A DNA stretch of 38,112 nt from Deltaproteobacteria bacterium. Its GTDB lineage: Bacteria; Myxococcota_A; Polyangia; JAAYKL01. The position numbers were made by a program, and so were the translations under genes. The first letter of the stretch is position 1, and each line of letters opens with the position of its first letter. A model generated the notes under the pieces. The model had not been told where the DNA came from. It did not search any database and saw only the letters and a program-made list of their open reading frames with translations. Shown piece by piece: positions 1 through 24,017 of this stretch. Location of the stretch: NCBI GenBank assembly GCA_016935665.1, contig JAFGQN010000163.1:1-38112 (forward strand). The letters run 5' to 3'.

Positions 1-95
1 GTTTCCTGCAGAGCAAATTTCTCCCCCTGAGAGAGTGTGTAGTCGTCGAAGGTCTGACGTAACATATCTTCCAGTGCTTTTAAATCAGCGGTCAT
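1..95 (-). CDS. Start of a gene cut by the window edge, possibly TerB-like
   Basis: An ATG at 95-93 on the minus strand opens a frame with no stop through the 31 complete codons up to the window edge. A Shine-Dalgarno-like AGAGGA lies about 10 bases upstream. The visible peptide begins MTADLKALEDMLRQTFDDY and continues with LSQGEKFALQE. The 'DD..LS.GE..AL' pattern resembles the first helices of TerB-like or EF-hand-like helical domains, but this rests on about 30 residues. It lies 198 bases downstream of the AAA ATPase on the same strand, so it may be the last gene of the flotillin/PspA operon. The reading frame is well supported; the family is a guess. Confidence 0.55.
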   Translation of the reverse strand, partial: MTADLKALEDMLRQTFDDYTLSQGEKFALQE

Positions 96-293
96 GTTTG
101 GGAAGTCCTCTTTCTGCCTTTTAAAGGCGGTATGACGGATTGCGTGTTGTTGGCACTCTATCGTGAAATATGGATATTCCACCTGGAACGCAGGGCGGTA
201 GTTTATCTGCAGCCACGTCCGGTGCTCGGCCGTTCAACCCCGGACCCTACATTTTTTATGGCAAAACGCATGTTTGTATTATCGATTATTCAT
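96..293. other. Intergenic stretch between AAA ATPase and partial gene
   Basis: No convincing gene is seen on either strand. It contains a 6-bp inverted repeat (GTCCGG at 217-222, CCGGAC at 240-245). It also holds a 13-base palindrome, GCCTTTTAAAGGC, at 116-128, about 20 bases upstream of the partial gene's start on the minus strand. The first could be a weak RNA hairpin but has no U-run on its minus-strand 3' side. The second could be an operator. Both roles are speculative. Confidence 0.3.
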
Positions 294-2030
294 TCAGACC
301 CGCGCCAGCAACGCCGAGTACTCCCTGGCGAGTTCATTGCGGCCCTCTTCGTCTTTGACCTGTTTACGGTAGCTCTCCGGTAAAAAGTTCACATCAGTGG
401 ATTCGATGACCGCGGCCACCACCTGAAGTTGTTTTTCCTCGCTCTGGTGAGAGGGCACAAACTGCGACAGCGACGCGCGTAAATGGGCGGCGGTCACATT
501 GTCGGATTCTTCGAGAATCGCCATGCGTCTTGCACGGGTGATGATCCCTTCAATATCCGCGCCGGAAAGCAGAATTCCATCTGGCATGGGGGGAACATCA
601 TCGCGCGCGATGGCAATACGGTTTTTTTTGCCCATGACCTGGAACATTTCCGTATAGTCTTCCTCGGTTTCCGGATAAAACAGTGGAATGTGCACCTCGC
701 AGCGGCCCTGACGCTTGATGTCAATGGGCAGCAAGTCCGGTCTGCAGGTGAGCAGAAACCAAACGATGCTGCCGCGATACTGCGTATTGCCCATCTGCGT
801 GGCAAACTGACTGAAAATACGACTCGACGTCCCGCTGTCGCTGCCGCCTGTGCGATCGCCCATGACAGCATCGGCTTCGTCAATCATCACGGCCACCGGT
901 CCCATCACACGCAACACCTTTAATATCTTTTCCAGATTTCCCTCGGTCTCGCCCACGTATTTCGAGCGAAAATTGAGCAGCTTTACGCAGGGCATGCCAA
1001 TGGACCCGGCGTAGCACTCGGCCAAAAAGCTTTTACCCGTTCCCACCGGTCCGCAAATGAGATAGCCCATGGGCACCGCATCCAGATGTCCTTTCTGAAT
1101 AAGGGCCGCATCCTCCAGCAGCCGCTGTCTGGCTTCCTGCTGTCCCACCACCATCTCCAGATTGTGCAACGGCTCCACGATTTCCACCAGACCCTGGCAT
1201 TCATCTTCAATCATCTGCTTTTTATATCGGCGCAGGATATCCACCGTCAGTATTGTCTTTTGCCGGATGGCGCGCTGCAGCATCCCCTGCAAATGAATCA
1301 GAGTGAGACCACGGGTAAAATCGGCGAGTGCGCCGGCATCCAGTTCGCAGATCTCGTCAATCGCCATTTCACGAGTCATCCAGTTGATAAAGCGCAGTCG
1401 CTCCTCTCTGTTTGGAAACGGAATTTCAATATTGGTCACATGGGCGTTGCGGGTCACCGCGTCATGCAGGTCAGAGAGTCGCTCGGAAATAAGACAAAAC
1501 GCAAACGGCGCCTTTTTAAAATACGGACTTTTGGCCCAGTTTAGCAAGGTGGCCAATGTGGGCGCCAGTTCACGGGCGGTGGTCGATACAGAGGTGGAAG
1601 GCACCATGAAATGGGCATAATCAAAAATCAATGCAGTGGATTGCCGCTCACTGTCCAGCAGTAACAGCCGCTCCAGATACCTATCGAAAATGGCAAACAC
1701 GCGGGCCACCTGGGTGGTATTGCGCAGCTCCTCCACCGGACCAATAAATCGCTCAATGTGCTGATTGATGGCGTTGAGTCTCTTTTGCGACCCGGCCATG
1801 GCTCTGGGACCACGCACCTGATCGTAATACAGCGCCGCATCGAAGCTGCCAAAAAGCTGAGTGGCCAAATACTCGGAGAGTTGACTGTATTTCAGCTCGC
1901 CGCCGGATTCATATCCAACCAGATCTCCCACATTGCCGTGAAGAACAAACAACTGACGAATGCCACCGGCATGGGCACGGCGGAGTTCATCCGCCCAGTC
2001 GGGTCCAAAATCAGAGGCGCCGTTATTCAT
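294..2030 (-). CDS. AAA+ ATPase of the flotillin/PspA operon
   Basis: This 578-residue protein has a canonical AAA core in its second half. The Walker A motif GPVGTGKS is near residue 329, Walker B VMIDEAD is near 381, and an arginine-rich stretch around GRCEVHIP fits the second region of homology. The N-terminal 280 residues begin with a 'QLFVLHGNVGDLV' signature and contain STALIFDYAHF. They look like a degenerate, P-loop-less ATPase domain similar in layout to Ycf46-type proteins. Its ATG overlaps the pspA stop by 4 bases (ATGA), implying translational coupling. No membrane segment is evident, so it is probably cytoplasmic. Given the neighbours it may remodel PspA or flotillin assemblies, by analogy with PspF on PspA or Vps4 on ESCRT-III. 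That role is inference; the ATPase call is secure. Confidence 0.88.
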   Translation of the reverse strand: MNNGASDFGPDWADELRRAHAGGIRQLFVLHGNVGDLVGYESGGELKYSQLSEYLATQLFGSFDAALYYDQVRGPRAMAGSQKRLNAINQHIERFIGPVEELRNTTQVARVFAIFDRYLERLLLLDSERQSTALIFDYAHFMVPSTSVSTTARELAPTLATLLNWAKSPYFKKAPFAFCLISERLSDLHDAVTRNAHVTNIEIPFPNREERLRFINWMTREMAIDEICELDAGALADFTRGLTLIHLQGMLQRAIRQKTILTVDILRRYKKQMIEDECQGLVEIVEPLHNLEMVVGQQEARQRLLEDAALIQKGHLDAVPMGYLICGPVGTGKSFLAECYAGSIGMPCVKLLNFRSKYVGETEGNLEKILKVLRVMGPVAVMIDEADAVMGDRTGGSDSGTSSRIFSQFATQMGNTQYRGSIVWFLLTCRPDLLPIDIKRQGRCEVHIPLFYPETEEDYTEMFQVMGKKNRIAIARDDVPPMPDGILLSGADIEGIITRARRMAILEESDNVTAAHLRASLSQFVPSHQSEEKQLQVVAAVIESTDVNFLPESYRKQVKDEEGRNELAREYSALLARV

Positions 2031-2761
2031 TCAGTCACTTTTTCAGGGCCAAGCTCTTTGGTCGTGGACGGCAGTTCCGCGGTTTCAGGAGTTTTCAGTC
2101 CCATCTCCACCTCAAACTGACTGAGCAGATCTTCGGCCATGGCCTGCTCCATAACTTTTTCCGCCTGAATGTCTTCCAGTCCCTGAGATGACATATCGCT
2201 GGCCACGCGGGTTTTGGCTCGGTTCAGATCAATTTTTTCCTGCACAATCTGCTCCACCTGACCAAAATCTGTTGTCACATCAAAATCAAACGACTGACTC
2301 AGCTGCGCCATTTGCGCTTCGGCCTCGGACATTTTGAGATCCGCTTCGTACTTGTTGATTTTCTCACGCACTTTGGCGAGATTTTTAGAGGCGAACTTTA
2401 TCTTATCCACATTATTCTGGTAGGAAACCTCATGGAGAGCCAGCTGTTTGCGGTTCTCCTCCAAATCCTTTTTGGCCTCGTTGAGCTGCACCGCACTGCG
2501 CGCGGCCGCTTCCCGCTGTCCCGCTTTGAGATACGCCTTGATTTTGGCCGTAATCTGCTCCACCTTCTTCTCGCCGGTTTCCACCTGACGGGTCACCCGC
2601 TCCACCATGGCGCGATATTTTTCGAGGCCTTCCCGGCCCTCTTTAAGCTGCGCCACGGATTTGTCATATTCCAGCTGCATCTGTGCAATGGGGTCCGCAC
2701 CCCAGAAGAAATTTGTCAATTTATTCATCTGTGCGCGAAACGCGTTCCACAATTTTCCCAT
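2027..2761 (-). CDS. pspA: PspA/IM30 (ESCRT-III-like) membrane-stress protein
   Basis: This 244-residue protein is almost entirely predicted coiled coil, the PspA/Vipp1 architecture. The N-terminus (MGKLWNAFRAQMNKLTNFFWG) is an amphipathic helix of the kind that binds stressed membranes. It is followed by the conserved 'DPIAQMQLEYDKSVAQLKEG' region and long helices with AGQREAAARSAVQLNEAKKDLEE. Family members form helical or ring polymers on damaged inner membranes and help preserve the proton gradient. A GGAGG Shine-Dalgarno lies 5 bases before the ATG. It follows the DUF3686-type ATPase after about 105 bases and overlaps the AAA ATPase start by 4 bases. The acidic tail (residues 215-244) is longer than in E. 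coli PspA and could contact the adjacent ATPase. Family identity is strong; the ATPase contact is inference. Confidence 0.9.
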   Translation of the reverse strand: MGKLWNAFRAQMNKLTNFFWGADPIAQMQLEYDKSVAQLKEGREGLEKYRAMVERVTRQVETGEKKVEQITAKIKAYLKAGQREAAARSAVQLNEAKKDLEENRKQLALHEVSYQNNVDKIKFASKNLAKVREKINKYEADLKMSEAEAQMAQLSQSFDFDVTTDFGQVEQIVQEKIDLNRAKTRVASDMSSQGLEDIQAEKVMEQAMAEDLLSQFEVEMGLKTPETAELPSTTKELGPEKVTE

Positions 2762-2866
2762 GACTCCTCCAAAGTTGCTGTGCGCTCATTCCAAACGCTC
2801 CAGACATGCTGCCCGGATTCTCCCTGATTGGGCATAATATATCCACTTTTCGCCATTTCCAAAAGG

Positions 2867-5800
2867 TCAATCCTTTTTCACCAATTTGGGAATAACCGTA
2901 CGCACCGCCGGCTGCCCGGTCGATGGTGCAGCCGCTGAACCACTCGGATGATGAGGCGTCTGTGGCGGCACCTGGTGGTGCACGGGATGCGACTGCGAGG
3001 TTGGCGCCGGGGGCGATGCGGGTCTTGACGGTCTCGACGATACCGGCGGCGGCGGATGATACGACACCGGCGATGACAGATGGGCCTGTCGGGCCGCCAC
3101 CTGAGCCACTCCCGCCATTGCCGTCTGCTTCAATTGATCGACGCCCAAAGCAAGGGTGCTATTGATTCCCAAAAGGCCATCCTTAAATGCGTCCAGCTGC
3201 ATGAGCACCTGTCCCATGCGGTCGTCTCCGGCGCTTGTCATCATCTGGTTTCGGTTAAACGTCTTTTTTATCTCCTTCCACCGGCTATCCTCCTTTGGTG
3301 AAAGAATATTAAGCATCTCCTTAAACTTCAGCAGATTTGCCTCGGCGCCGGTGGTCAGGGTCTGGGCTTCGCTTTCGTAATGGGAATGAACCAGAGTTTC
3401 CAATTCATCGTCATTCATGATGGGCAACACCTTCTCGGCCAGCCGATTCATGTTTCTGTACGACCCCTGCAGTTTAAACGGTGGCTCCGTGCGGTACTCA
3501 TCGGACTGTGCCGCAGAGAGGATATACTCCTGATTCACCGCCAGAATCACGTCCCGAATCCGCATCAGTTTTTTTATCACAGACAGATATTCGGACATTT
3601 CATCGGCGGAGTAATTGCCCTCGAACTCAATTCCCTCGGTGGTGCCGGTTTCCGCCGCGTTGATGATACTGTAAACATCTTTAAAGTTTTTTGTGGCCAG
3701 CGACGACAATATCGAATTGGAAGTGAGGCAGTTTTCCAGATAACTCAGTTTAAACACATCCGCGCTGTCACCGATAATATCGCCCAGATTGTAAGTATCC
3801 GCGCGGTTGGCCAGCATATCGGGAATCTTAAACGCTTCGCCACTCTCAGAATAGGGGTTGCCTGCCATCACCACACACACCTTGCGTCCACGCAAATCGT
3901 AGGTGCGGGTTTTGCCTTTGTACACCCCTTCGATTTTGCGCTGGGCATCACACAATGAAATAAATTTTTGCAGAAACTCGGGGTTGCAATGCTGAATATC
4001 GTCCAGATACAACATTACGTTGTCCCCCATTTCCAGAGCCAGATTCAGCTTTTTAATTTCCTCACGGGCAGCGGCGTTGGGGGCCTCCACGGGATCGAGA
4101 GAGGTCACTTTGTTGCCAATTGCCGGACCATTGATTTTCATGAAAATAATACCCAGACGATTGGCAATGTACTCCATCAGGGTGGTTTTTCCATATCCCG
4201 GTGGCGAGATAACCAGCAGCATTCCCATGCGATCAGTACGCGTCCCCGCGCCCACCACGCCAATCTGCTTGGCCAGGTTTTCCCCCACCAGTGGCAGATA
4301 CAGCTGATCAATGAGCCGGTTGCGCACAAACGCGCTCAACACCCGCGGCTTGAATTCATCGAGGCGCATCTCCTGGGTGGCTTCTTCCACCAGACGTCGT
4401 TTCAATTCCTGATGCTTGAAAAAGAGGGGCACCGTCTCCAGCTCGAATCGGGCGAGTCGATTCATAAAGTCGCCGTAGCCAAGCGTGTAGTTGCCATCAT
4501 CGATGCGCTTACTACTGCCCACCATCCCTGTAATCTGCGCGGTCACCCTGGCGTGCACCACCTTGAAAAATGGTTCTCCTTTGGGTTTTTCGTCGCAGTT
4601 CAGCTGCAGTAAACACAGGGCGGCCACTTCGGGGACTATTTCCCGCAGATGCGCCTCAGAACGGCTGTTCACAAAACCGGTTAGCCAGTTGCGCGTCAGT
4701 AAAAAGGCGTCAATGGGATTGTCGCACAACTTTGATACCGGGCCGGTAAACGCCACCAGTTCGCCCCGTCGCTCCAGATGGGCCAAAAACTGCTTCAGGG
4801 TTTCAGCACACGTTTCGCTGGTATGCCATTGGCCACCCGATGAAAGCACATTAAACAGATATCGGGCCGCGTCCGCCTGCAGATGAACGGGAAAGAGTGC
4901 TGTCAGCTGCGCGTTCCCTTCCTGGAACAGGCCAATCTGATTTTGGAGGTCGCTCACATATTCCGCTTCGCTGTCGCCAATATCAAAAAAACGGGCCATT
5001 TGCCCCACGCCGGCGAGTTTTGTTTGCAACACGAGTTTGAAGCTGTCTTCCGGCAACCAGTACCAGTACAGCATCGCCAACGCCCTGGCAGCGGTGTCGT
5101 GGCGCAACAAACCAATGGATGCTTCCATTTTGAGCAGTTCGTGCAACAGCAGTCCCGTATCATGGTCGTGCACGCCTTTTACATATCCTTCGGCGTAGCG
5201 CGGCCCCATAAACCGGGTCACTTCCCTGGTGAGATCGTCGACGGACATTTTCAGCCATTCGGCCCGCTGTTCTGCCCCCGATTGTCGCAGCATCACAAGA
5301 GCCAGGTATTCCGACCGATACACATCCTCGTTTTCCGATACCAGTTCCTGTTTCCACACCGCGTGGGTGGCCGCGATTTCCTCTGAGGTGATTCGCTCAA
5401 AGAAGTTGGTGCCGGTCAAGTGCAGATACAGATGGTCGTCCCTATCCACAATGGTGAGCGCCAGCTCCTGGGTGTTGACTGAAAACGCATGGTTGCCAAA
5501 CTTAATGACATCCTGCCCGCCCACATACAGTTCATTGCGGTCTTTGAGCTGCCGCACGGCGTCCTGCTGCAGGGTTTTCAGTCTGGACTGCACATCACCG
5601 GATTTGACACTGTCGCCAAGGTCCGCAAGACTTTTGATGATATCGCGAACCTTGTCCACCATCAAATCACCGGCAAAGTAACCGTTAATATCTTCCACCG
5701 TCTCAAACTGCTCCAGGCGGGTAGCCATTCCTTTTAAGATGCGCTCCGCACTGCGCTGCAAGGCATCGGTTTTCTTATTGAGCGCCTCCACCAGAGCTAT

Positions 5801-8086
5801 TTTTCTGGAACCGAACGTATTGTAAATCTCTTCGCGTTTTTCGGTGAGTATGACTACAAAGTCGCCAAAGTCTGAAAACTTGCCTTCAAGTTCGGTTAAC
5901 TGCACCGACACTTTGGTGAGGTATTCCTCGCACTTGCCCGGCGTATCGCTCACATCCAGATAATTGATGACCGCCTGATCGAGCAACTTGATTTCGGAAG
6001 CAAACTCCGCTTTGCCTTCTGTGGATGCCAGAGATTCGATGCGATTTTTAAGCGCTGCTCTGGCCTGATTGAGCACCGAAAAAATGGTAGAGATATTGTC
6101 AATAATCTGCGTGCGCCAGGAGGCATCATCGATTTTCAGATTGCTGACAATTTCCACCAGCATTTCCAGCTCGTCCGAACAGGTGGATACCTCTTCAGAC
6201 AGCTTTTTGCCCTCAGACACTTTTTCCAGCGGCGCGATTTGCGTTTTCAGATTTTCCACCCGGTTGCGGTAGGGTTCCAGCGCTTCGGCGGTCAGCAAAA
6301 ATTCCACACACTTTTGCGAAATTCGCTCAATGTGCTCGCCCACCTGCCCTTCCATGGCCACCACATGGGACACATCCACATAGCGCAGTTCCTTAAGAGA
6401 AATCACGCCACCGCGCAGACTGCGCAGAGAGGTGAGAATTTTGACAAAATCGTTTATCTGCTCAAACCGACTGGCCCGGATGGAAAGCACCACTTCCTGG
6501 ACTTTGGCTTCCACTTTGGCCACTTCGTCCCGGGTGCTCTTTTTAAGGCGAACCACCTTTTCGAATTGCTCAATGGCCGATTTGGAGGTTTCGCGAATGC
6601 CCTGCAACGGCTCGCGGATATTGAAGGCATCGGCGTGGTCGAGCCAGAAGTAATTGTCCAGAATCTCCCCGGACTCCCGGGAAATATCCACATAAATATT
6701 GGCGTAGCTCTCGTCTTTGGCCACCAGATTCAGCACATTGCGACACGCCGCCATGCTGCGCACGATTTCCTTGTTGCCCAGCTTGTAGAGATACGATTCG
6801 TGTTTGGCGGGCATCTCGTAGTCGACACTCACAAATGGGGTTTGCCAAATCTGAATCTGATGGTGCTTTTGCGGTTCGTCATTGGAGCGAAAATACGCCA
6901 TCTCGCCATTCTCGAACAGTGTAAATCCGTTGCACACAATCGGTGTGGCCACTTTCTGCTCAATCATGTTGTAGGCCAGAATAATGTACATCCCGGTGTT
7001 GCGGCAGATAAACACAAACGCGGTGTCTTCCCCATTGGGAGAACTGATGCGCTTTAAAAATTCCATTCCGCGGATATCGCTGTCAAACTCCTTGTATTCT
7101 CCGGACTGCAGGTAATACCCATTCGAAAAAATAACGCCGTGATCTTCAGGGAGCAGCACGCAGGAATCGGCAATGGAGTCCAACCGACAGGCACTTTGCA
7201 CCTTTGTGTTGTAAACAATGTAACGGTATTTCTTTTCCTTATATGGCAATATCTTCATCAATACGAGATTGCCCACAATAGCATAGGAGATTTCCCCGTC
7301 GTCCAGTGTCTGATCCAGGTCGTCCACCGGCTCGGCATAAATACCCGACCCCGAAGACGTGTTGTCTTCCACCTTCACCGTCAAGTCACCGCCCACGGTT
7401 TCCACAAACACAATATCTTCGATGGACATGTGGGGATGCTCGCCGTGTACCTGATTGTCGCGGGTGCAGCGCTTCCATTCGAACTCGTGCTGTGGAGGCA
7501 GCCTCAACTCGTGATCGCTGCGGTTATCCACATACACCAAACCATTATTTTCTTTGCGTATCCACTTAAAGGTTTTGACATCATCCACGCCGGCGCCAAT
7601 ACGAAAGACCATGAAGATACTGGGGCCCACCGTGGCAAAATGCGAGAAGGACGTTTGCTTGTAGTACCGATACAGGTTTTTGAAATCTTCTTCGAACCGA
7701 TTGTCGTTGATCAGCGTGTTGTCCACTTTGTGAAATGCGCGCTTCGCATACTGATAAACCGCAAACACATCGGATATGTTGGTTTCACTGCGCAACCCCA
7801 TGGTGACGTTGTACCCAAAGAGAAACTGATCCCCCACCGAAAGCATATCCCGGGCCACACAGTTGTTATCTGTGGAAATGCGTTCCGTCCCCAAAAGCTC
7901 AAAGGCCAGCGCGCCAAACACCTCCTTGCGGGAGTCATTTAATTTCGCAAGGCGCTGCTGCAATTCCTTGGCGTTGTGCTTCAGTCGACCGCGAATAATT
8001 TCATAGGTTCCGCCCGCCAGAGCCTCATCCTGTGGCTTCGCAGTTTCGGCTGCCTCGACATTCTGTTTTTGGGTCGATTCCACCAC
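2867..8086 (-). CDS. Giant DUF3686-type 'DNA repair ATPase', 1739 aa
   Basis: The N-terminal third (about residues 20-500) is a mixed domain with WD-like beta-rich sequence, matching my memory of the DUF3686 family annotated 'ATPase involved in DNA repair'. Residues about 500-860 are charged and heptad-like, probably coiled coil. The C-terminal part has an AAA domain with Walker A PPGYGKTTLMEY near residue 1296 and Walker B VMLYLDDIQH near 1360. The last 70 residues are a Pro/Ser/His-rich disordered tail ending KLVKKD. Translation starts at GTG 8086, with AGGT upstream, only 7 bases after the flotillin stop. There is no signal peptide or membrane segment. The database name implies DNA repair, but the flotillin/PspA/NfeD-like setting argues for a membrane-associated role. 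The domain call is firm, the function open. Confidence 0.85.
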   Translation of the reverse strand: MVESTQKQNVEAAETAKPQDEALAGGTYEIIRGRLKHNAKELQQRLAKLNDSRKEVFGALAFELLGTERISTDNNCVARDMLSVGDQFLFGYNVTMGLRSETNISDVFAVYQYAKRAFHKVDNTLINDNRFEEDFKNLYRYYKQTSFSHFATVGPSIFMVFRIGAGVDDVKTFKWIRKENNGLVYVDNRSDHELRLPPQHEFEWKRCTRDNQVHGEHPHMSIEDIVFVETVGGDLTVKVEDNTSSGSGIYAEPVDDLDQTLDDGEISYAIVGNLVLMKILPYKEKKYRYIVYNTKVQSACRLDSIADSCVLLPEDHGVIFSNGYYLQSGEYKEFDSDIRGMEFLKRISSPNGEDTAFVFICRNTGMYIILAYNMIEQKVATPIVCNGFTLFENGEMAYFRSNDEPQKHHQIQIWQTPFVSVDYEMPAKHESYLYKLGNKEIVRSMAACRNVLNLVAKDESYANIYVDISRESGEILDNYFWLDHADAFNIREPLQGIRETSKSAIEQFEKVVRLKKSTRDEVAKVEAKVQEVVLSIRASRFEQINDFVKILTSLRSLRGGVISLKELRYVDVSHVVAMEGQVGEHIERISQKCVEFLLTAEALEPYRNRVENLKTQIAPLEKVSEGKKLSEEVSTCSDELEMLVEIVSNLKIDDASWRTQIIDNISTIFSVLNQARAALKNRIESLASTEGKAEFASEIKLLDQAVINYLDVSDTPGKCEEYLTKVSVQLTELEGKFSDFGDFVVILTEKREEIYNTFGSRKIALVEALNKKTDALQRSAERILKGMATRLEQFETVEDINGYFAGDLMVDKVRDIIKSLADLGDSVKSGDVQSRLKTLQQDAVRQLKDRNELYVGGQDVIKFGNHAFSVNTQELALTIVDRDDHLYLHLTGTNFFERITSEEIAATHAVWKQELVSENEDVYRSEYLALVMLRQSGAEQRAEWLKMSVDDLTREVTRFMGPRYAEGYVKGVHDHDTGLLLHELLKMEASIGLLRHDTAARALAMLYWYWLPEDSFKLVLQTKLAGVGQMARFFDIGDSEAEYVSDLQNQIGLFQEGNAQLTALFPVHLQADAARYLFNVLSSGGQWHTSETCAETLKQFLAHLERRGELVAFTGPVSKLCDNPIDAFLLTRNWLTGFVNSRSEAHLREIVPEVAALCLLQLNCDEKPKGEPFFKVVHARVTAQITGMVGSSKRIDDGNYTLGYGDFMNRLARFELETVPLFFKHQELKRRLVEEATQEMRLDEFKPRVLSAFVRNRLIDQLYLPLVGENLAKQIGVVGAGTRTDRMGMLLVISPPGYGKTTLMEYIANRLGIIFMKINGPAIGNKVTSLDPVEAPNAAAREEIKKLNLALEMGDNVMLYLDDIQHCNPEFLQKFISLCDAQRKIEGVYKGKTRTYDLRGRKVCVVMAGNPYSESGEAFKIPDMLANRADTYNLGDIIGDSADVFKLSYLENCLTSNSILSSLATKNFKDVYSIINAAETGTTEGIEFEGNYSADEMSEYLSVIKKLMRIRDVILAVNQEYILSAAQSDEYRTEPPFKLQGSYRNMNRLAEKVLPIMNDDELETLVHSHYESEAQTLTTGAEANLLKFKEMLNILSPKEDSRWKEIKKTFNRNQMMTSAGDDRMGQVLMQLDAFKDGLLGINSTLALGVDQLKQTAMAGVAQVAARQAHLSSPVSYHPPPPVSSRPSRPASPPAPTSQSHPVHHQVPPQTPHHPSGSAAAPSTGQPAVRTVIPKLVKKD

Positions 8087-8093
8087 GATTTAC

Positions 8094-10358
8094 CTACTTT
8101 TTAGCCGACATCAGCAGTCCGGCGTTTTGGTCGGAAATCCCCAATTCCCTGGCCGTATCAGCCAGTTTGCGAATGGCAGCGATGGTATCGCTGTCATCGG
8201 CCATCAGTGTCAGTTTCGCCAGCATGGCGGCGATGGAGAGATTTTTCATGGAACCGGAATCCATGCCCAACGATTCCATATAATTTTTCAGCTTTTCAAC
8301 CAGCATGGTCTGCTTGTCTCCAAACAGAGACTGGCGCACATCCCCCAGCACGTTGCTGTTGGTCACAGTGCGATCAATGACCTTGCCGGTGGTAATGGAA
8401 TTAACAATCTTGTCGAAGAACTGGGTCTCACCACCCACGATGTCAATACGGGCATGCTTGAGCGCTTCGCCCACAATTTTCGCCTGTTCAGAAGCAACTT
8501 TGGCCTGAATATCGATTTGCGCCAGCTCCACATCGAGTTCTTTTTGCAATCTGAGTTTGAACTCTTCGTGTTCCTTGCCCACAGCGTCGTATTTCTTCAT
8601 GGCATCGGCCTTGCTCTCGATGCCGTGCGCTTCCGCTGCGTACTTCTGCTCGGAGCCCTGGGCTTCCACGCGCAGTTTCTCTTCCATCACGCGCGCCTCC
8701 GCCAGACCGCCTTTTTCGTCAGCCAGATATTTCTGCTCGGCCCCCTGTGCTTCCACGCGCAGCTTCTCTTCCAATACACGAGCTTCGGCCAACCCTTCTT
8801 TTTCCACGGCTTCGGCGCGGGCCTTCATACCCGCAGCTTCGGCCATGGCTTTTTTCTGAATCACATTGGCTTCCGCGGCGCCAAATTTTTCGGCTGCTTC
8901 TGCCTGTGCTTCTGTGGCGCGGGCTTCACCCATTCCTTTAACGGCTTCTTCCTGCGCCTTGGCGTCTGCAATTATCTTGCGCGCATCCGCTTCTTTCTCA
9001 GATGCGGCCCGTTGACCTTCCGCGATAATAATCTGCTGTTCGGCGGACAGCGCTGCCGCTTCCTTCTCTGCCTCGGCCTGTTTCACCGCTTTAATCTTGA
9101 TTTGTTCCGCTTCTTCTTCCGCGCCCAGGATGGCTACTTTTTTGGACCGTTCCGCTTCAGCCAGTTCTTTGGTGTCTTTGATACGTTCTTCCTGTTCCAC
9201 CACCGAACGCTCCACCGTCACACGCTCGCGAATCACTTCCTGAATATTGCGACGTTCGGTTTCCACCGCTTTTTCTTTTTCAATTTGAGCCAGCGTTACA
9301 ATGCGCTCGCGCTCCGTGGCTTCAAGAGCGCGATCTTTTTCAACGCGTTCGGTTTCCACCGCATTGGCCCGTTCCTTGTTTTTGGCCGCAATAACAATCT
9401 GACGCTGTTTATTCTCTTCAGCTATTGCAATTTCTTCTTCGGTCGCAATGCGGGACTGCTCCGCCCGTTTACGCTCTTCCTGACGCACCACAAACGCCGC
9501 TGCTTCCTGCCGTGCTGAAATCTCAGCAATTTCTCTTTTCTGATTCTGCTCGGCCTCAGCCTGCTGCTTGTCCAGCTGTAAAATGGTTTCTTTGGCTTCC
9601 ACATCCTGCTTGCGAATGGTTTTATTCTTGTTCTGGTCAATTTCATTTGCCAGAATAGCCTGTTTGGCCGTCAAATCCGTGATTTTCTTGATACCGTCTG
9701 CATCCAGGATATTCTGAGGATCCAAATGCTTGATGGATGTCTGTTCCAGGTAGTCAATGGCCGCATCGTCCAGCACATACCCATTCAGGTCCGTGCCAAT
9801 CACGTTCAAAATTTCTTCTTTAAAACGCAACCGATTGGTGTACAGCTCCACAAAGTCAAACTGCTTGCCCACCGTTTTGAGCGCTTCGGAAAATTTAGCG
9901 TCGAAAAACTCCACGAGTGCCGCTGTACTGGAAGCGCGCACACATCCCAGAGACTGGGCCACCTTCAACGTATCCTGAGGGGTCTTGTTCACCTGCACAA
10001 AGAACGCCACCTTCACATCGGCGCGCATGTTGTCTTTACAAATCAAACCGTTGGTACCCATCCGGTCAATTTCCACCCGCTTCACCGAAATATCGAGCAT
10101 CTCCCTGCGGTGAATAATTGGAATGACCAGCATCCCGGAGAAGGACACCTTGGTTCCGCCCATACCGTTGCGCACCAGGGCTGTGCCCTGCTCCACCTTG
10201 TGGTAGCATTTCAAAACCATAATCACGCAACCGATAACGATGGCGACAATCAGACCTATCCCCACAGCCAGGGGGCCACCGAATGGATCGAAACCCATCG
10301 CAGAATCAGCAAGGTTCATCAATGTAGTTGCGTTCAGAATTATAGTTCCCATATTCAT
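8094..10358 (-). CDS. Large flotillin (YqiK-like SPFH protein)
   Basis: This 754-residue protein has one N-terminal membrane helix (about residues 30-50, GGPLAVGIGLIVAIVIGCVIM). An SPFH/PHB domain follows (about 55-240, including VRNGMGGTKVSFSGMLVIP and DISVKRVEIDRMGTNG), then a very long Ala/Glu/Lys-rich coiled coil (about 240-640) and a C-terminal helical domain. Flotillins form oligomeric membrane cages that organise lipid microdomains. At this length it matches the YqiK group better than the roughly 500-residue FloT/FloA. The coiled coil contains a near-perfect 29-residue tandem duplication (residues about 522-573). Translation starts at ATG 10358 behind AAGGGG, 19 bases after the YqiJ-like gene. 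That gene pair is the classic flotillin/NfeD-type arrangement. Confidence 0.92.
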   Translation of the reverse strand: MNMGTIILNATTLMNLADSAMGFDPFGGPLAVGIGLIVAIVIGCVIMVLKCYHKVEQGTALVRNGMGGTKVSFSGMLVIPIIHRREMLDISVKRVEIDRMGTNGLICKDNMRADVKVAFFVQVNKTPQDTLKVAQSLGCVRASSTAALVEFFDAKFSEALKTVGKQFDFVELYTNRLRFKEEILNVIGTDLNGYVLDDAAIDYLEQTSIKHLDPQNILDADGIKKITDLTAKQAILANEIDQNKNKTIRKQDVEAKETILQLDKQQAEAEQNQKREIAEISARQEAAAFVVRQEERKRAEQSRIATEEEIAIAEENKQRQIVIAAKNKERANAVETERVEKDRALEATERERIVTLAQIEKEKAVETERRNIQEVIRERVTVERSVVEQEERIKDTKELAEAERSKKVAILGAEEEAEQIKIKAVKQAEAEKEAAALSAEQQIIIAEGQRAASEKEADARKIIADAKAQEEAVKGMGEARATEAQAEAAEKFGAAEANVIQKKAMAEAAGMKARAEAVEKEGLAEARVLEEKLRVEAQGAEQKYLADEKGGLAEARVMEEKLRVEAQGSEQKYAAEAHGIESKADAMKKYDAVGKEHEEFKLRLQKELDVELAQIDIQAKVASEQAKIVGEALKHARIDIVGGETQFFDKIVNSITTGKVIDRTVTNSNVLGDVRQSLFGDKQTMLVEKLKNYMESLGMDSGSMKNLSIAAMLAKLTLMADDSDTIAAIRKLADTARELGISDQNAGLLMSAKK
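8641..8800 (-). repeat. 87-bp in-frame tandem duplication in the flotillin coiled coil
   Basis: Two DNA segments starting at 8641 and 8728 match with a few substitutions at a period of exactly 87 bases (29 codons). They encode GLAEARVLEEKLRVEAQGAE and GLAEARVMEEKLRVEAQGSE. A 29-residue period is near four heptads, which would keep the coiled-coil register nearly intact. Confidence 0.85.
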
Positions 10359-10377
10359 TTACCCCTTTTGTTCACGG

Positions 10378-11073
10378 CTAAGCGCGGTGAATAATTGCGA
10401 TGCTTGTTTTAATGTCATAGGCAACAACTATTGCCTCTTCGTCTTTAAGCAGTATTTCCTCATTTTCGGTACGGGCGTTAATCACAAGCGGCGAACCTTC
10501 TGTCTCAATTCTCGCCTGACCAAAAGTGGCATCCACTTTACTGGTTGCCACTATACAAGTGCGTCCTACCATTTCTTCAAAGTCTTCTTTTTCTTCGCTC
10601 AATTTATTAAATATTCCCTTGAACGGTTGTGTACAAATTTTGGTAAGCAATAGACTTCCCACAAAATTCGGGATCAATAACACGACTGCCCAAAATATAG
10701 ACCCTTTTCCTATATAATATTGAAAAAGTATCGATGCCCACCACATGAAAAAGGTCAAAAAACTAAAGATAATCATCACCGGGACTTCGCCCAGATTGAA
10801 AAACAGGAGCATGGAATGCAGTACCCCCTGGAGGCTGGTGCCTGTATCTGCGTGCGCATCCACATCTGCGTCCGCTTCCACGTCTGCATTCACATCCACG
10901 TCAGCATCCATCCCTACATCCACGTCGGAATCCACGTCGAAATTAAACAAATCCAAATCGAAGACACCCACTATAACAGTGAGCCAGTACAGGATGGCCA
11001 CTCCAAGCAATACGGTGTACACAACGTTGGCCAGCGTCACACAAAATATCAGAAAATTCAGGAATCCGTCCAA
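10378..11073 (-). CDS. YqiJ/NfeD-like membrane protein with OB-fold and Asp-rich loop
   Basis: The frame is open upstream to an ATG at 11157 that has no ribosome site. I place the start at TTG 11073 because GGAGG (11079-11083) lies exactly 5 bases before it; the product is then 231 residues. Residues about 5-37 are hydrophobic. Residues about 38-78 form a low-complexity acidic loop of alternating Asp and Val/Ala. Two more membrane segments cover about 88-140, and the C-terminal 70 residues (MVGRTCIVATSKVDATFGQA) have the small beta-barrel pattern of the NfeD/YqiJ OB-fold. Such proteins are obligate flotillin partners in the E. coli yqiJK and Bacillus yuaF-floT loci. It is the first gene of the operon. 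The Asp-rich loop could bind divalent cations (inference). Confidence 0.82.
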   Translation of the reverse strand: MDGFLNFLIFCVTLANVVYTVLLGVAILYWLTVIVGVFDLDLFNFDVDSDVDVGMDADVDVNADVEADADVDAHADTGTSLQGVLHSMLLFFNLGEVPVMIIFSFLTFFMWWASILFQYYIGKGSIFWAVVLLIPNFVGSLLLTKICTQPFKGIFNKLSEEKEDFEEMVGRTCIVATSKVDATFGQARIETEGSPLVINARTENEEILLKDEEAIVVAYDIKTSIAIIHRA

Positions 11074-11078
11074 TCTGA

Positions 11079-11083
11079 CCTCC
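11079..11083 (-). promoter_or_regulatory. Shine-Dalgarno that fixes the TTG start of the YqiJ-like gene
   Basis: On the minus strand GGAGG sits 5 bases upstream of TTG 11073. The upstream ATG at 11157 has only an A/T-rich leader. The ribosome site therefore decides the start and removes 28 N-terminal residues from the longest frame. Confidence 0.7.
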
Positions 11084-11195
11084 AGAGAATACACGTGGGA
11101 GACAGCAACGCGCTGCCTGTTATCTTCCAGTTTTTGAATACCGATAGTGGCATGCAAAAAATTTCACGGAGCTGTAATTAAAAACAATGACAGAA

Positions 11196-11224
11196 ATTAT
11201 TGCTGCTTTTTCAAACAACGTCAA
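11196..11224 (-). promoter_or_regulatory. Sigma70-type promoter of the flotillin/PspA operon
   Basis: Reading leftward, TTGACG (11224-11219) is separated by exactly 17 bases from AATAAT (11201-11196). Each box matches the consensus at 5 of 6 positions. It lies downstream of the aconitase terminator and about 115 bases before the TTG start of the first gene. I see no sigma54-type GG/GC pair, so PspF-type control is not indicated. Confidence 0.6.
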
Positions 11225-11290: not shown

Positions 11291-11318
11291 GATAAAAGAA
11301 CGAAAAAAGGGGCGTTCT
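11291..11318 (-). terminator. Rho-independent terminator after aconitase
   Basis: On the minus strand AGAACG (11318-11313) and CGTTCT (11302-11297) form a 6-bp stem around a CCCC/TTTTTT loop, followed by TTTATC. The stem begins inside the TAG stop codon region of the aconitase gene, so the terminator overlaps the end of the gene. It separates aconitase transcription from the flotillin operon promoter. Confidence 0.5.
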
Positions 11319-13578
11319 ACTGCTGACGCGAACGAATGAGATTAAGCGCGGAGCCTGCTTTAAACCATTCTATCTGATTGGCATTATAGGTGTGATTCAC
11401 AGGGAATGTTTCTTCGGTCCCATCACTGTGATGAAGCACAAGTCGTATCTGACTGCCGGCAGAGAATTCCGCCAGCCCCACGACATCAATGACGTCATCC
11501 TCGCGGATTTTATCGTAATCGTCCCTGTTGGCAAACGTCAGCGCCAGCATCCCCTGTTTTTTCAGGTTGGTCTCGTGAATGCGGGCGAATGAACGGGTGA
11601 TCACCACTTTAACGCCCATATGCCGAGGCTCCATCGCGGCGTGTTCCCTGGAAGAGCCCTCGCCGTAATTTTCGTCGCCCACGACGATGGTTCCGATGCC
11701 TGCGTCTTTGTACGCCCGGGCCAAAGCGGGCACTTCGCTCAACTGGCCGGACAACTGATTTTTGACCGCGTTGGTGGCGCCCCCAAAACGATTCACCGCG
11801 CCAATCAGCAGATTGTTGGAAATATTATCCAGATGTCCCCGATATTTCAGCCATGGGCCCGCCATCGAAATATGGTCCGTTGTGCACTTGCCACTTGCTT
11901 GAATGAGCAGCCGCAGCCCTATGAAATCGTTACCGTCAAAGGGCTTAAAGGGCGAAAGCAATTGCAGTCTTTCGGAATCCGAACGCACAACCACTTCCAC
12001 CTGACTGCCATCTTGAGCCGGGGCTTCGTATCCCGGGTCCTCTACAGCAAAACCGTCTTCGGGCAATTCCAAACCGGCGGGTTCATCCAGCATCACTTCT
12101 TCGCCATCTTCATTTATCAGCATGTCAGTTATTGGATTGAACAACAGCGTGCCCGCAATGGAAAACGCCGTTACAATTTCCGGCGATGCCACAAAGGCGT
12201 GGGTATTGGGATTGCCGTCGGCCCGCTTGGCGAAGTTGCGGTTAAACGATGTCATGATGGAATTGGATTCCGCTTTTTCCGCCCCCAGTCTGGCCCATTG
12301 GCCAATGCAGGGGCCACAGGCGTTGGCCAGCACCACGCCACCGATATCTTCGAAATAGCCTAAAATGCCATCGCGTTTCGCGGTGTAACGCACCTGCTCC
12401 GATCCCGGCGTCACGGTATATTTGGAATTCACTTTCAATTTCTTTTCACCCGCCTGTGCCGCCACAGAGGCCGCGCGCGTCAGGTCTTCGTACGAAGAAT
12501 TGGTGCAGGAACCAATTAGCCCCACCTCCAGTTTTTCGGGCCAATTATTGGCCTTTACTTCTGCTGCAAATTGCGACAGTGGGATGGCGCGATCGGGGGT
12601 AAACGGACCGTTGATATGGGGTTCCAGCGTTGAAAGGTCAATCTCTATGACCTGATCAAAATATGTTTCAGGTGAGGCATACACATCTGCATCGCCAGTG
12701 AGCTCGTCAGCCAGCGCGTCTGCCAGATTCGCCACGTTATCTCTTCCGGTTCCCCGCAGATAGTCTGACATTTTCTCGTCGTAGCCAAACAGAGACGTGG
12801 TGGCGCCAATCTCGGCGCCCATATTGCAAATGGTTCCCTTGCCAGTGCAGGACATTGATTTGGCGCCATCCCCGAAGTACTCCACAATACAGCCGGTGCC
12901 GCCTTTTACGGTGAGAATTCCCGCCACTTTAAGAATCACGTCTTTGGCCGAAGTCCAGCCGTTCAGCTGTCCGGTCAATTTGATGCCAATCAGTTTGGGA
13001 AACTTCAATTCCCACGGCATACCGGTCATCACATCCACCGCATCCGCGCCCCCCACACCAATTGCCACCATGCCCAGACCACCGGCATTCACCGTATGAG
13101 AATCGGTGCCAATCATCATTCCCCCGGGGAACGCATAGTTTTCCAACACCACCTGATGGATAATGCCCGCACCGGGCTTCCAAAACCCAATTCCGTATCG
13201 GTTGGAGACTGACCGCAAAAAATCGTACACTTCCCGATTGCTCTGTGATGCTATTTGCAAATCTTCTTTGGCGCCCACTTTGGCTTGAATCAAATGATCA
13301 CAATGAACTGTACTGGGAACTGCAGCGCGTTCTTTGCCCGCCTGCATAAATTGCAGCAGCGCCATCTGTGCGGTGGCATCCTGCATGGCCACCCTATCCG
13401 GGTGAAACTCCACATAATCGACGCCGCGCCCAAACGCCCTGCCTGGTATCGCAGCGCTGTGGGCATACAAAATCTTTTCTGCCAGCGTCAGCGGTCTTCC
13501 ACACGACTCCCGTGCCATAACGACTTTTTCTTTAAAGTCGCTGTATACCTTCTCAATCATTGAAAAATCAAACGTCAT
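11317..13578 (-). CDS. acn: Aconitate hydratase, mitochondrial type
   Basis: This 753-residue cytosolic enzyme interconverts citrate and isocitrate through cis-aconitate in the TCA cycle. The three [4Fe-4S] ligands fall at residues 358 (GSCTNSS), 421 and 424 (ANACGPCIG), the same numbers I recall for porcine mitochondrial aconitase. Also visible are the [19 protein letters not shown] substrate/cluster region and the C-terminal swivel domain with [19 protein letters not shown], which holds the catalytic serine. Length and signatures fit the mitochondrial/ACO2 group rather than AcnA (about 890) or AcnB (about 860). The ATG at 13578 has AGGGAAG upstream. It is transcribed divergently from marR. 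A hairpin lies just upstream of its ribosome site. Identity is very secure. Confidence 0.96.
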
Positions 13579-14585: not shown

Positions 14586-14948
14586 CAGCTACGCGTACGT
14601 CAACGGTGCCGAATCCATTGCGGGCATGGGAAATACTCAACCGCCAGTTGCCTCATAGTTCTTCCGTTCATGCCCGCCCGCCGCACCTTTTTAGCGGAAT
14701 TACATTGAAATTGCAGAAATAACTTTCATCTCAAAAAAACATTCCGCGCGATACGCGATAAATGAGCTCGAATTTCCACTCCTGGTACTATCCAGTGGAC
14801 CACTTATTTTTATTAAGGATTATACAAAACCAGCTACGCATAAATCGGTGAGATAACAAAGAGGGAAAATTTAAAACAATATCCGATTACATTCCAAATC
14901 GGGAGTGTAATCTCCAATTTGGGCAGATTGAACATAAGGATTGAAGTT
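14586..14948. promoter_or_regulatory. Intergenic region with structured leader of the GH105 gene
   Basis: No gene is seen. GCGGGCATG (14620-14628) and CATGCCCGC (14669-14677) form a perfect 9-bp inverted repeat around a 40-base loop. Nearer the GH105 start are two direct, nearly palindromic boxes exactly 20 bases apart, TCCAAATCGGG (14893-14903) and TCCAATTTGGG (14913-14923). Within the same stretch three pairings compete: CCGATT with AATCGG, GATTACA with TGTAATC, and CCAAAT with ATTTGG. This could be a tandem operator or a switchable RNA leader. I could not identify a convincing promoter. Confidence 0.5.
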
Positions 14949-16361
14949 ATGACAAACAAGGACCCCAATAACAGACCGTTTTGGTCAAACCACTTAACCA
15001 TTATCGCACACCTGCTGCTGGCACTGTTGCTCATGGCAGCGGTACCGGCATGTGGTGGAGATAGCAGCAGCGATGGCTCTGATGGCGATTCTGATGCAGA
15101 CAGTGATTCCGATTCGGACAGTGACTCCGATACGGACGGTGATTCCGATAGCGATGGCGACTCCGACGCCGATGGTGATTCCGATAGTGACGGCGATTCG
15201 GACTCTGATGGCGATTCGGACTCTGATGGCGATTCGGACACAGACGGTGATTCAGACACCGATGGTGACTCCGATAGTGACGGCGATTCAGACTCTGACG
15301 GTGATTCGGACTCTGACAGCGATTCCGATGGTGATTCCGATTCCGATACTGAAATCGAAAATCCACTCAAACATCTGCAAACATCGGCACAGGAAATCGG
15401 ATTGAAATTGGCAAACAGGTTTAACAATCAGAACCTTTCTTTCAATTCCGTGGCCAATCTGCCGGGAGACGGATACAAATCCGCATGCGAATGGTACGGT
15501 TCACTTGGTGTGGCAAGCCTGACTGGCAGTCAGCAGTTGCTGGATTCTCTGGTCACCAAGTTCAATCCCTTCAAGCAAAATTTTGTAAATGACATGAAAG
15601 GTGGAGAAGCTCATGTGGACCGTTACATTTTTGGAATGGTTCCCCTGGAAATCTATTTGCAGACCAACGACGACAGTTATTTGACATTGGGGACGGACGT
15701 GGCAGATCATCAACAGGCAACAAACCAGACCAGAGGGGCTATTGACGACATGTTCATGATGACCGGCCTTCAGGTGCAAGCGTATCGTGCCACAGGTGAC
15801 GACGGCTACCTGAACTTCATGGCCAAAACAATGGTGGACTACCTTAAAGCACAAAAAGACAATGGTCTGTTCTATCACAATGATCGTGAAGCGCCGGTGC
15901 ATTGGGGACGCGGCAACGGTTGGTTCGCATCCGGCATGGCCGAAATCATGAGAGATTTGCCCACAGACAATCAGTATTATGGCACCATCGAAGCCGGTTA
16001 TAAAAAAATGATGGAGGGATTACTCAAATATCAGACCCAAAACGGTCTGTGGTGTCAGGTAATCGATATGCCAGATAACTCTTCGAACTGGGAAGAAACC
16101 TCCGGTTCCGCCATGTTTACGTATGCGATGGTTGCGGGCGTCAAACGGGGCGTTCTGGATGCGGCAACCTATGTTCCGGCCATCGAAAACGCCTGGACGG
16201 GTATTCAAGGTAAAATTGGCGGAAACGGCGATGTCAAAGATATTTGCGTTGGCACCTGGTACAAAAGCTCTCCACAGGAATACATGGGGCTAACGCGATT
16301 AACCGGAGATGGCCACGGTCAGGCGCCCGTTTTATGGATAGCCGCTGAGTTGTTGCGATAA
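14949..16361 (+). CDS. GH105/GH88-like unsaturated glycuronyl hydrolase lipoprotein
   Basis: I choose ATG 14949, with AAGGA 8 bases upstream, over a TTG ten codons earlier; the product is 470 residues. A lipoprotein signal ends at Cys35 (MAAVPAC). Residues about 38-137 are a linker of Ser-Asp/Gly-Asp hexads. The rest is an (alpha/alpha)6-barrel domain with the marks of unsaturated rhamnogalacturonyl hydrolases: AIDDMFMM with Asp266/267, where the catalytic Asp is expected, and [13 protein letters not shown] near 319, followed by [10 protein letters not shown]. Such enzymes hydrate and release delta-4,5-unsaturated uronic acids left by pectin lyases. The long acidic linker should hold the enzyme away from the outer membrane. 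GH105 is more likely than GH88 by motif; exact substrate is unknown. Confidence 0.83.
15064..15355 (+). repeat. Ser-Asp-Gly hexad repeat array encoding the linker
   Basis: About 290 bases consist of degenerate 18-base units (GAT/GAC alternating with TCC/TCG/AGC and GGC/GGT) encoding S-D-x-D-G/S-D hexads. Codon choice varies between units, so the peptide repeat is conserved better than the DNA. The reverse strand reads as an open Ser-Glu-Ser-Pro frame, which is a shadow. Confidence 0.9.
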
Positions 16362-16710
16362 TTCGCAGCGACTATGCCAGCTACTTCCCTCAAATGGTTT
16401 TTAGTGTTGCTGGCCCCCCCTTTCAACTTATCCATAGTCGGAATTGCCGATGAGTCAGGCAGGTCAACGGAGTTCCCGCACGAAATCTAAAATGGCACTA
16501 TAAATTCATAAATAAACCAACTAAACTTATTCATCCAATATCTTTCCCGAGGAACTTTGTTAGGATTATTTACCAAATAATCAGGGAAAAAATGAGCAAA
16601 TCGGTTTGAAAGTTGCGATTTTCGTTGTTTCAAAAAAACTTTGTAAGTATGTTTAACAAACATTTTTTTGGTACCACCGGCTTGCGCAGGATATTTGCAG
16701 AGGAGCAGTT
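16362..16710 (+). promoter_or_regulatory. Regulatory region of the xyl operon
   Basis: No gene is seen in these 349 bases. ATGTTTAACAAACAT (16649-16663) is a perfect 6-bp-arm palindrome with the GTTT..AAAC core common in ROK/XylR operators. It overlaps a plausible -10 (TATGTT, 16648-16653) that lies 17 bases from TTGTTT (16625-16630). A second inverted repeat, TTTGAAA (16605-16611) and TTTCAAA (16628-16634), lies just upstream. The layout fits repression by the XylR encoded next door. The promoter boxes are weak matches. Confidence 0.5.
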
Positions 16711-18015
16711 ATGAGTAAAAAAGAAGCGCCACCTTCTCCAGTGTCGCTAAAAACAGGCGAATCCAGACTCCTTGGAAATGCATATATCCGTGCCGTTAAC
16801 CAGGCGAATATATTGGACTTATTCCGAAGTGGACAGCAATTATCCAGAACCGATATATCCAGAATCTGTAATTTAACCAAGCCTACTGTTAGTGCGATTG
16901 TCGAACAACTCATCGCAGATGATGTGTTGAGAGAAGCCGGAATGGGCCCGAGCGAAGGCGGTCGCAGAGCCCGTCTTCTCGAATTTAACCCGGGCTCTTC
17001 CACTTTTATTGGAATTCATTTTGGTGAAGACACCACCCACGTCGCAATCACTGATGCGCTTGGTCGAAAGCTGGCCCGCCGAACGGCGACCACGGTGGCT
17101 GGAAAACCCGACGCATCGATGGAAATTGCAAGAGTCCTTATAAACGAGTCTCTGTCAGAAATTCATCAGTCACTGAATAAGGTCACTGCGGTGGGGGTGA
17201 GCGTCCCCGGACTAGTGGACAGACAATCCGGCGCCTGCAAAATTGCGCCCAATCTTGATTGGCACAATTATCCAGTGGCCGAGAAGCTCTCAGCACTGCT
17301 TGGAGTCGATGTTTTTGTTGCCAATACAACACAGAATGCAGCACTGGCGGAACATCAAATGGGCGTCGCCCGCGGACTGCAGAATTTCATCTGGGTATAT
17401 GTGGGCAAGGGTGTGGGGTCGTGCGCTGTCATAGGCGGTCGCGTCCAGCTTGGCTCAAGGGGGTTTGCCGGCGAAATTGGTCACTGCAAAATAGAAGCCC
17501 CCGGTGTGCTGTGCGGATGCGGCAAGCGGGGGTGTCTGGAAACCACATGCGCCAATCAGGCAATCGTACGCGAAGCGAAAAAGCAGGTGGATTCCGGCCG
17601 TCCCACATCTCTGTCGGAACTCGGCAACCGTGTCACTGCATGGGATGTGAGCATGATAGCCTCTGAGGGAGACACGGTCGCCCAGAAAATCATGACCGAT
17701 GCGGGACGGGCACTGGGTCAGGGCATTGCCACCCTGTTGAATGTATTTGATCCTCAGATGGTGGTCATCGGAGGACCGGTCGCGGGTACGGACGAACATT
17801 TCCTCGAAGGTGTCAGAGACTATGCTGCCCGCAATTGCCTCGAATCCTGCGGCGCGGAAATCGTTTTTTCCCACCTGGGCAGCGATATTTATCTTATCGG
17901 CGCAGTGCTGATGGCGATGGAGCAGTCCAACGCAGCTTATCGAATTGTTAAAACAACCAAAGCATTGGATGACCAGACCAACAAAGAGATTTCGGTCAGA
18001 TGGAGTGAATTATGA
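16711..18015 (+). CDS. xylR: ROK-family xylose repressor
   Basis: This 434-residue protein has an N-terminal winged helix (residues about 20-85: ANILDLFRSGQQLSRTDISR, then LTKPTVSAIVEQLI). A ROK sugar-binding domain follows with the zinc site CGCGKRGCLE (about 268-277) and the GEIGHCKIE signature. XylR proteins of this type repress xylose genes and let go on binding xylose. It is the first gene of the operon. Its stop overlaps the xylB start by 4 bases (ATGA), and GAGGAG lies upstream of its ATG. Being inside the operon it should be autoregulated through the palindrome at 16649-16663. The symbol rests on family plus neighbours, so another pentose ligand is possible but less likely. Confidence 0.9.
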   Translation: MSKKEAPPSPVSLKTGESRLLGNAYIRAVNQANILDLFRSGQQLSRTDISRICNLTKPTVSAIVEQLIADDVLREAGMGPSEGGRRARLLEFNPGSSTFIGIHFGEDTTHVAITDALGRKLARRTATTVAGKPDASMEIARVLINESLSEIHQSLNKVTAVGVSVPGLVDRQSGACKIAPNLDWHNYPVAEKLSALLGVDVFVANTTQNAALAEHQMGVARGLQNFIWVYVGKGVGSCAVIGGRVQLGSRGFAGEIGHCKIEAPGVLCGCGKRGCLETTCANQAIVREAKKQVDSGRPTSLSELGNRVTAWDVSMIASEGDTVAQKIMTDAGRALGQGIATLLNVFDPQMVVIGGPVAGTDEHFLEGVRDYAARNCLESCGAEIVFSHLGSDIYLIGAVLMAMEQSNAAYRIVKTTKALDDQTNKEISVRWSEL

Positions 18016-19505: not shown

Positions 19506-19530
19506 ACGACAGAACGAAGGAGTACAAAAA

Positions 19531-20865: not shown

Positions 20866-20902
20866 CCACTCCAGTATTCCTTTAAAAAAGGAGGCTTTTC
20901 TC

Positions 20903-23856: not shown

Positions 23857-23866
23857 CGCCCCTCTG

Positions 23867-23891
23867 CTCAAAATTATTGAGAAACATTTTT
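23867..23891 (+). terminator. Weak hairpin after the xyl operon
   Basis: CTCAA (23867-23871) and TTGAG (23877-23881) form an A/T-rich 5-bp stem followed by AAACATTTTT. It is the only terminator-like structure in the 160 bases after the symporter. The stem is short and separated from the T-run by four bases, so it may be inefficient. Confidence 0.3.
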
Positions 23892-23969
23892 ACCGCCGTT
23901 AATCATTCAACAGCAATGGTGTGCCCAAAAATCATTCAGGTATGATAGTTCTAATCGCGGTTTCGCGTG

Positions 23970-23975
23970 TATAAT
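23970..23975 (+). promoter_or_regulatory. Candidate -10 box for the alpha/beta hydrolase
   Basis: A perfect TATAAT lies 42 bases upstream of the ATG at 24018, preceded by a small CGCG-gttt-CGCG hairpin. No good -35 box lies 16-18 bases upstream, so the promoter is only suggested. Confidence 0.35.
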
Positions 23976-24017
23976 CGTTTCGGTTCTCAGTGCACAACGC
24001 CTCTTGAAAGGAAAATT

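Follow-up and report, generated by a model that had tools for sequence, protein, structure and literature searches.

Two kinds of bacterial operon in which proteins of the PspA/IM30 family (ESCRT-III superfamily) are coupled to AAA+ ATPases have been described by Ravi et al. 2024 (PMC11237479). The first kind combines a CesT/Tir-PspA arrangement with a transmembrane (TM)-Band7-flotillin, a propeller/coiled-coil AAA+ protein and YqiJ, and the second combines PspA with a double AAA protein, whose N-terminal copy is inactive, and with ABC, permease and PBP-OmpA genes; Snf7 homologues with a TM segment are mentioned in such operons, and ATP-dependent remodelling by PspA-AAA pairs is proposed. PspA rods are also known to remodel membranes (PMC11746142), and the SPFH protein YdjI is reported to be required for the membrane placement of PspA in B. 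subtilis (PMC8581546). The locus considered here lies at the start of contig JAFGQN010000163.1 of a Deltaproteobacteria bacterium (assembly GCA_016935665.1), the whole 38,112 nucleotides of which are referred to as the window. Five co-directional genes on its reverse strand encode a YqiJ-like protein, a flotillin, a giant DUF3686 AAA+ protein, PspA and a tandem AAA ATPase, designated AAA2. This arrangement is a hybrid of two modules, a flotillin trio and a PspA-AAA2 dyad, and not one conserved five-gene machine. Matched by description, the propeller/coiled-coil AAA+ protein of Ravi et al. would be the DUF3686 protein and their double AAA protein would be AAA2. Going by what is accessible of that paper, both modules were already known, so that 'new machine' would be too strong a term; the union of the two modules in a single operon, the conserved LGP tail at the C-terminus of PspA and the distribution counts given below were not found there.

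Two modules joined in one operon

In the order of the reverse strand, the trio comprises a YqiJ/DUF1449-like (NfeD-type) membrane protein (10378..11073, 231 amino acids (aa)), a large flotillin/SPFH protein (8094..10358, 754 aa) and the DUF3686/DUF7902 giant AAA+ protein (2867..8086, 1739 aa), and the dyad comprises PspA (2027..2761, 244 aa) and AAA2 (294..2030, 578 aa). The row of five co-directional genes in the original prediction is real, its gaps of 19, 7 and 105 bases (the last at 2762..2866, between the DUF3686 and PspA genes) and its 4-base overlap all being recovered from the list of open reading frames (ORFs). The gene order is identical in a congener (L012/L046), with a spacing of 22, 8, 101 and -4 bases and protein identities of 66% for YqiJ, 78% for flotillin, 73% for DUF3686, 84% for PspA and 76% for AAA2. 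Among the loci read, these are the only two genomes, both of the window's genus, in which trio and dyad stand together. The five genes had been proposed as a candidate membrane-repair machine, a claim that rarity or non-conservation of the set outside this genome was said to refute; the set was seen in one genus only, which is the outcome named there, although each half is conserved separately.

The separate distribution of the trio was apparent both within and beyond the phylum. Of the 284 Myxococcota genomes sampled (one per species, partly incomplete, with all genome counts tallied by hand), 45 had DUF3686, and at 40 Myxococcota DUF3686 loci a flotillin gene was directly upstream in 37 and a YqiJ-like gene was present in 32, with contig ends accounting for most of the exceptions. 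Neither PspA nor AAA2 was found beside DUF3686 at any of these 40 loci, nor at those of five further relatives (L013-L017). Outside the phylum, the trio was recovered from Deinococcus, Streptomyces, Nonomuraea, Vibrio, Halomonas, Proteus, Pseudomonas and Hymenobacter, and the trio clusters of Hymenobacter and plasmid pQBR103 include a CesT-type gene and a different, CesT-linked PspA, from which the window PspA is distinct by sequence. The same flotillin trio with different PspA types per lineage offers a clean evolutionary handle.

Measured against the flotillin-type operon of Ravi et al., the window likewise has a YqiJ-like 3TM protein, a flotillin, a giant AAA+ protein (the propeller being matched by description) and PspA, but it has no CesT/Tir gene in 294-11157, its PspA is of the AAA2-linked type, and AAA2 has been added in the place after PspA. 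The window is one whole contig and the view ends at position 1, shortly past AAA2; the congener has no CesT/Tir gene in the 3.6 kb past AAA2. Measured against the PspA-double-AAA operon, the window likewise has PspA adjoining a tandem AAA protein with a dead first domain (D1), but it lacks the ABC ATPase, permease, PBP-OmpA and CL3 (a TM coiled-coil protein) and has the flotillin trio instead.

Transporter, PBP/OmpA and CL3 genes are absent from the window, and PBP/OmpA is absent from the genomes of both the window (G000) and the congener (G002), whereas all six PspA + AAA2 relatives outside the window's genus have PBP/OmpA. In the AAA2 tree, the two trio-linked copies group together (100/100) inside the transporter-linked Myxococcota copies. 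This is consistent with relocation of the dyad from a transporter operon to the trio operon in the window's genus, the polarity of which is taken from the nesting of the trio-linked copies.

A candidate promoter, TTGACG-N17-AATAAT, lies on the same strand at 11196..11224 and matches the consensus at 10/12 positions. In the congener (L012), the same hexamers occur with the same 17-nt spacer in the same place, and this conservation is the single argument for the site, the number of promoter-like sites in the region being not above that in shuffles. The 105-base gap between the modules contains promoter-like hexamers (9/12, at 2862-2834) that are not kept in the 101-base gap of the congener, and no terminator-like site was listed in it. 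The sequence thus favours one transcript for the five genes, since the upstream site is conserved and the gap hexamers are not.

The joining of the modules may nevertheless be read as two independent systems that share a promoter in one genus, the dyad being an ATP-driven assembly or maintenance factor of the transporter whose move had no functional meaning. Such a reading would account for the usual company of the dyad, PBP/OmpA being present in 55 of the 80 AAA2 loci counted, usually together with permease, ABC and CL3 genes, and a transporter in 6/8 PspA + AAA2 relatives, and it would also account for the fusion being seen in two genomes only and for the weak genome-level association of dyad and trio (p 0.03). 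However, both dyad genomes of the window's genus kept the dyad and its tail after the loss of the transporter, indicating that the dyad is useful without it, the common gene order and the conserved upstream site suggest co-expression, and a different PspA type adjoins the trio elsewhere. Two unconnected systems are therefore considered an unlikely explanation, if the strongest of the alternatives.

The PspA-AAA2 pair

AAA2 is closely coupled to this type of PspA. A scan of named genomes recovered 218 AAA2 relatives, of which the best 80 were used for locus counts; most of these belong to Myxococcota, Planctomycetota, Acidobacteriota and Gemmatimonadota, and identity to the window AAA2 is 44-76% in 79 and 43% in one. 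PspA was in the same cluster at 62 of the 80 loci, and many of the other 18 were on short or truncated contigs, three being full-length loci that lack PspA. Among 39 relatives, a full-length AAA2 was found in nine, and this type of PspA was present in eight of those nine as against none of the 30 others (Fisher 1.5e-7), the ninth genome being 71% complete; conversely, all eight relatives with this PspA have AAA2. Of the 284 Myxococcota genomes, five carry AAA2 above 800 bits, and the same five and no others have a strong PspA; five divergent AAA2 copies directly adjoin divergent PspAs. An AAA2 was also seen in a contig titled Lysobacterales (L103), with no PspA found at the locus; horizontal transfer or faulty binning may account for it. 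The neighbouring CL3 (L040:6292-7170 and others) is a conserved TM and helical protein with no Pfam family and may be the TM-bearing Snf7-like protein mentioned by Ravi et al. It is not claimed as a second ESCRT-III protein, a profile comparison with PspA having given a probability of 0.2%.

AAA2 is recognised by Pfam (AAA, 1.8e-24), which gives AAA and lid_3 matches only and no transcription factor domain. Its structural model (predicted local distance difference test, pLDDT, 87) has as best PDB matches Rix7, p97, Cdc48 and Drg1 across both AAA domains, and its layout is a degenerate D1 (~1-280) followed by an intact second domain, D2. D1 has FxLHGNVxDL in place of a P-loop GKT/S and lacks a conserved Walker B acid. 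In D2, the window protein has Walker A GPVGTGKS at 327, the pore loop SKYVGE at 356-361, Walker B DEAD at 384 and arginines at 440/443, and all 43 orthologues aligned retain GPxGTGK[ST], DEAD, an aromatic pore loop SK[YF]VGE and the arginines; the Walker A variation over the 43 amounts to PVGTGK with one S and two S-for-P variants. By these motifs, the first ring is catalytically dead and the second ring has the parts required for polypeptide threading. No MIT and no Vps4_C domain was found by Pfam, the first 280 residues take the form of a degenerate AAA domain in the model, and AAA2 scores 50 bits against the CdvC model as compared with 81 against Pan; on this modelling evidence, AAA2 is not a Vps4 relative and is p97/Rix7-like.

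The window PspA falls at the margin of the Pfam PspA family (3.5e-8, 33.8 bits against a cut-off of 33.9). A PDB sequence search with the PspA alignment gave nothing at 0.01, and the fold model was used instead; it consists of an amphipathic alpha0, a long alpha1-alpha2/3 hairpin and further helices (pLDDT 68, with the hairpin above 80 and the alpha4 region of low confidence), and its ten best PDB matches are all Vipp1. The model thus supports a PspA/ESCRT-III fold. No relatives were found in the viral contigs scanned with PspA. The AAA2-linked PspAs share a C-terminal extension, FEvexGLxTPETA...KxLGP, the window PspA ending in ...FEVEMGLKTPETAELPSTTKELGPEKVTE, and LGP occurs within the last 50 residues in 60 of 67 non-identical dyad PspAs as well as in three strongly diverged (tier-2) PspAs that stand beside AAA2 copies of ~510-530 bits. 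Six classical Myxococcota PspAs and two CesT-linked PspAs lack it. The tail is outside the modelled helices, in a part of low model confidence, and its conservation makes it a candidate ATPase-docking signal.

A threading build combined with a constant partner, PspA, that has a conserved tail means that AAA2 most likely extracts or remodels PspA. The reading that we lean towards, by a modest degree, is that AAA2 acts on the PspA polymer in the manner of Vps4, using ATP, within a two-module hybrid envelope-stress operon. On this reading, the YqiJ-like protein and the large flotillin would together make up a platform in the membrane, with the giant DUF3686 protein as its ATPase, and PspA would polymerise on damaged or curved inner membrane, assembling at platform sites. 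AAA2 would then grip PspA subunits, probably by the flexible C-terminal tail ending KxLGP, and thread or extract them, thereby remodelling or recycling the coat in the way that Vps4 acts on ESCRT-III. PspA may be brought in by the flotillin platform, on the model of YdjI in B. subtilis, where PspA is likewise associated with an SPFH protein that anchors it (YdjGHI), although the window flotillin is large and YqiJ-linked. Membrane repair is plausible as the purpose, given the known roles of PspA.

The dyad and the ESCRT-III/Vps4 (CdvB/CdvC) system of archaea and eukaryotes both have an ESCRT-III-fold polymer, a dedicated classical AAA protein with an aromatic pore loop and a conserved flexible tail, but Vps4/CdvC has an MIT domain and a single ring, whereas AAA2 is a tandem p97/Rix7-like protein in which no MIT was found, and the LGP tail is no known MIM. 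Of the remodelling like that of Vps4 that was originally predicted, the PspA fold, the coupling to AAA2 and the threading parts hold, although AAA2 itself is not a Vps4 relative. Similarly, of the two ATPases that were thought to be dedicated to PspA, AAA2 is tied to it and the DUF3686 protein goes with flotillin, normally with no PspA beside it. Overall, that interpretation is partly supported, and ESCRT-III/Vps4 has a good candidate bacterial counterpart in the PspA-AAA2 pair. A more specific and more tentative proposal, which we would put forward as possible, is that AAA2 is a dedicated disassembly ATPase for an ESCRT-III-family polymer, of p97/Rix7-like origin, that reads the LGP tail as Vps4 reads MIM, the pair having moved from a transporter operon to a flotillin platform in this genus. 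The conservation of the PspA-ATPase pair across four phyla, together with its candidate docking tail, opens the question to direct testing.

The opposite direction of control is conceivable, with PspA binding and inhibiting AAA2 and releasing it under membrane stress. Inhibition of the AAA+ activator PspF by E. coli PspA is an established precedent, likewise of a PspA with an AAA+ protein, and the 4-base gene overlap would fit a fixed stoichiometry. However, AAA2 is a classical threading AAA with Rix7/p97 folds and not an NtrC-type activator, and the flexible tail of PspA is conserved, not the hairpin alone, making control of this kind improbable.

Several observations weigh against AAA2 acting on PspA within a joint system. 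The trio is usually without an adjacent PspA and the dyad is usually with an adjacent transporter, and from these separate contexts neither module appears to need the other. The tail is not universal, three PspAs that adjoin a more distant AAA2 subfamily (L206-L208) being without LGP. An AAA2-like tandem AAA protein scoring 410-460 bits is encoded in about 45 Myxococcota genomes, and in several of those read (L198-L205, L210) the gene adjoins rplU/rpmA/obgE or L27/ObgE/RsfS, with no PspA recognised nearby. PspA has a slow ATPase activity of its own (PMC11746142), and in known systems any dependence on an external ATPase is weak at most. Further, all the Fisher p-values ignore shared ancestry.

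The flotillin module and the DUF3686 protein

The first two members of the trio were identified largely by homologues and position. The YqiJ-like protein matches Pfam YqiJ_N at only 0.0035 and its identity rests on synteny, homologues being found in the same place in Hymenobacter, Deinococcus, Vibrio and Proteus. Its ORF was originally listed as 10378-11157 (259 aa), but a TTG start at 11073 is more likely from the sequence, having CTGGAGG just 5' of it and being the point at which the alignment with the congener protein begins. The flotillin, with a predicted N-terminal TM segment, an SPFH domain and a long coiled coil, has no Pfam match of its own; its best pieces are 44-54% identical to proteins annotated as SPFH/flotillin in pQBR103 and Streptomyces and to the same-place Hymenobacter homologue, and the pQBR103 homologue matches Band_7 at 9e-11.

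The giant protein is assigned by Pfam matches to DUF3686 (PF12458, 8.4e-187), DUF7902 (1.7e-27) and AAA (8e-7). It has Walker A PPGYGKT (1295-1301), Walker B LDDIQH and an NRAD arginine, and among the covering rows of the DUF3686 alignment the Walker A GKT is kept in 48/48 and DDxQH in 47/47, indicating an intact AAA domain, which may be MoxR-like. A literature search on DUF3686 found no paper. Its Pfam title, 'ATPase involved in DNA repair', would fit a DNA-repair or anti-phage defence operon, as would its presence on several plasmids or secondary replicons and weak PADLOC matches to IetA (AAA domain) and to JetC and LmuB (coiled-coil parts). However, these matches cover generic AAA or coiled coil only, the operon is without a nuclease, methylase or sensor, and the partner genes encode membrane proteins in every lineage read, so that a role of this kind is very improbable. 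The doubt that had been cast on the 'DNA repair' name is upheld by the flotillin gene just upstream at those 37 Myxococcota loci.

At the genome level, some PspA was present in all 45 DUF3686 genomes and in 177 of the 239 others (p 7e-6, a hand count with ancestry and genome size uncontrolled). The genes upstream of the trio in Deinococcus, which were considered as PspA or AAA candidates, are transposase pieces and a GGDEF protein. In Vibrio campbellii (L213:13831-15609), PLD-like and TelA (toxic anion resistance) genes follow the flotillin trio.

Other features of the window

A sixth, TerB-like gene had been suggested to follow AAA2, but the ORF concerned (3..182, reverse strand), which is cut by the contig end, has no Pfam match, and an unrelated convergent ORF is found there in the congener; on present evidence it is outside the system. 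Upstream of the operon, a mitochondrial-type aconitase gene (11317-13578) adjoins a carbohydrate-use cluster (14919-25127 and 33990-36885) encoding GH88, a ROK regulator, an FGGY kinase, a xylose-isomerase-like protein, GH43, an MFS_2 transporter, a second GH43 and a LacI/PBP-like protein. Genes for a solute-binding protein, a PAS/HAMP histidine kinase and a response regulator stand in a row at 25575-30580 and likely constitute a transporter-linked two-component system.

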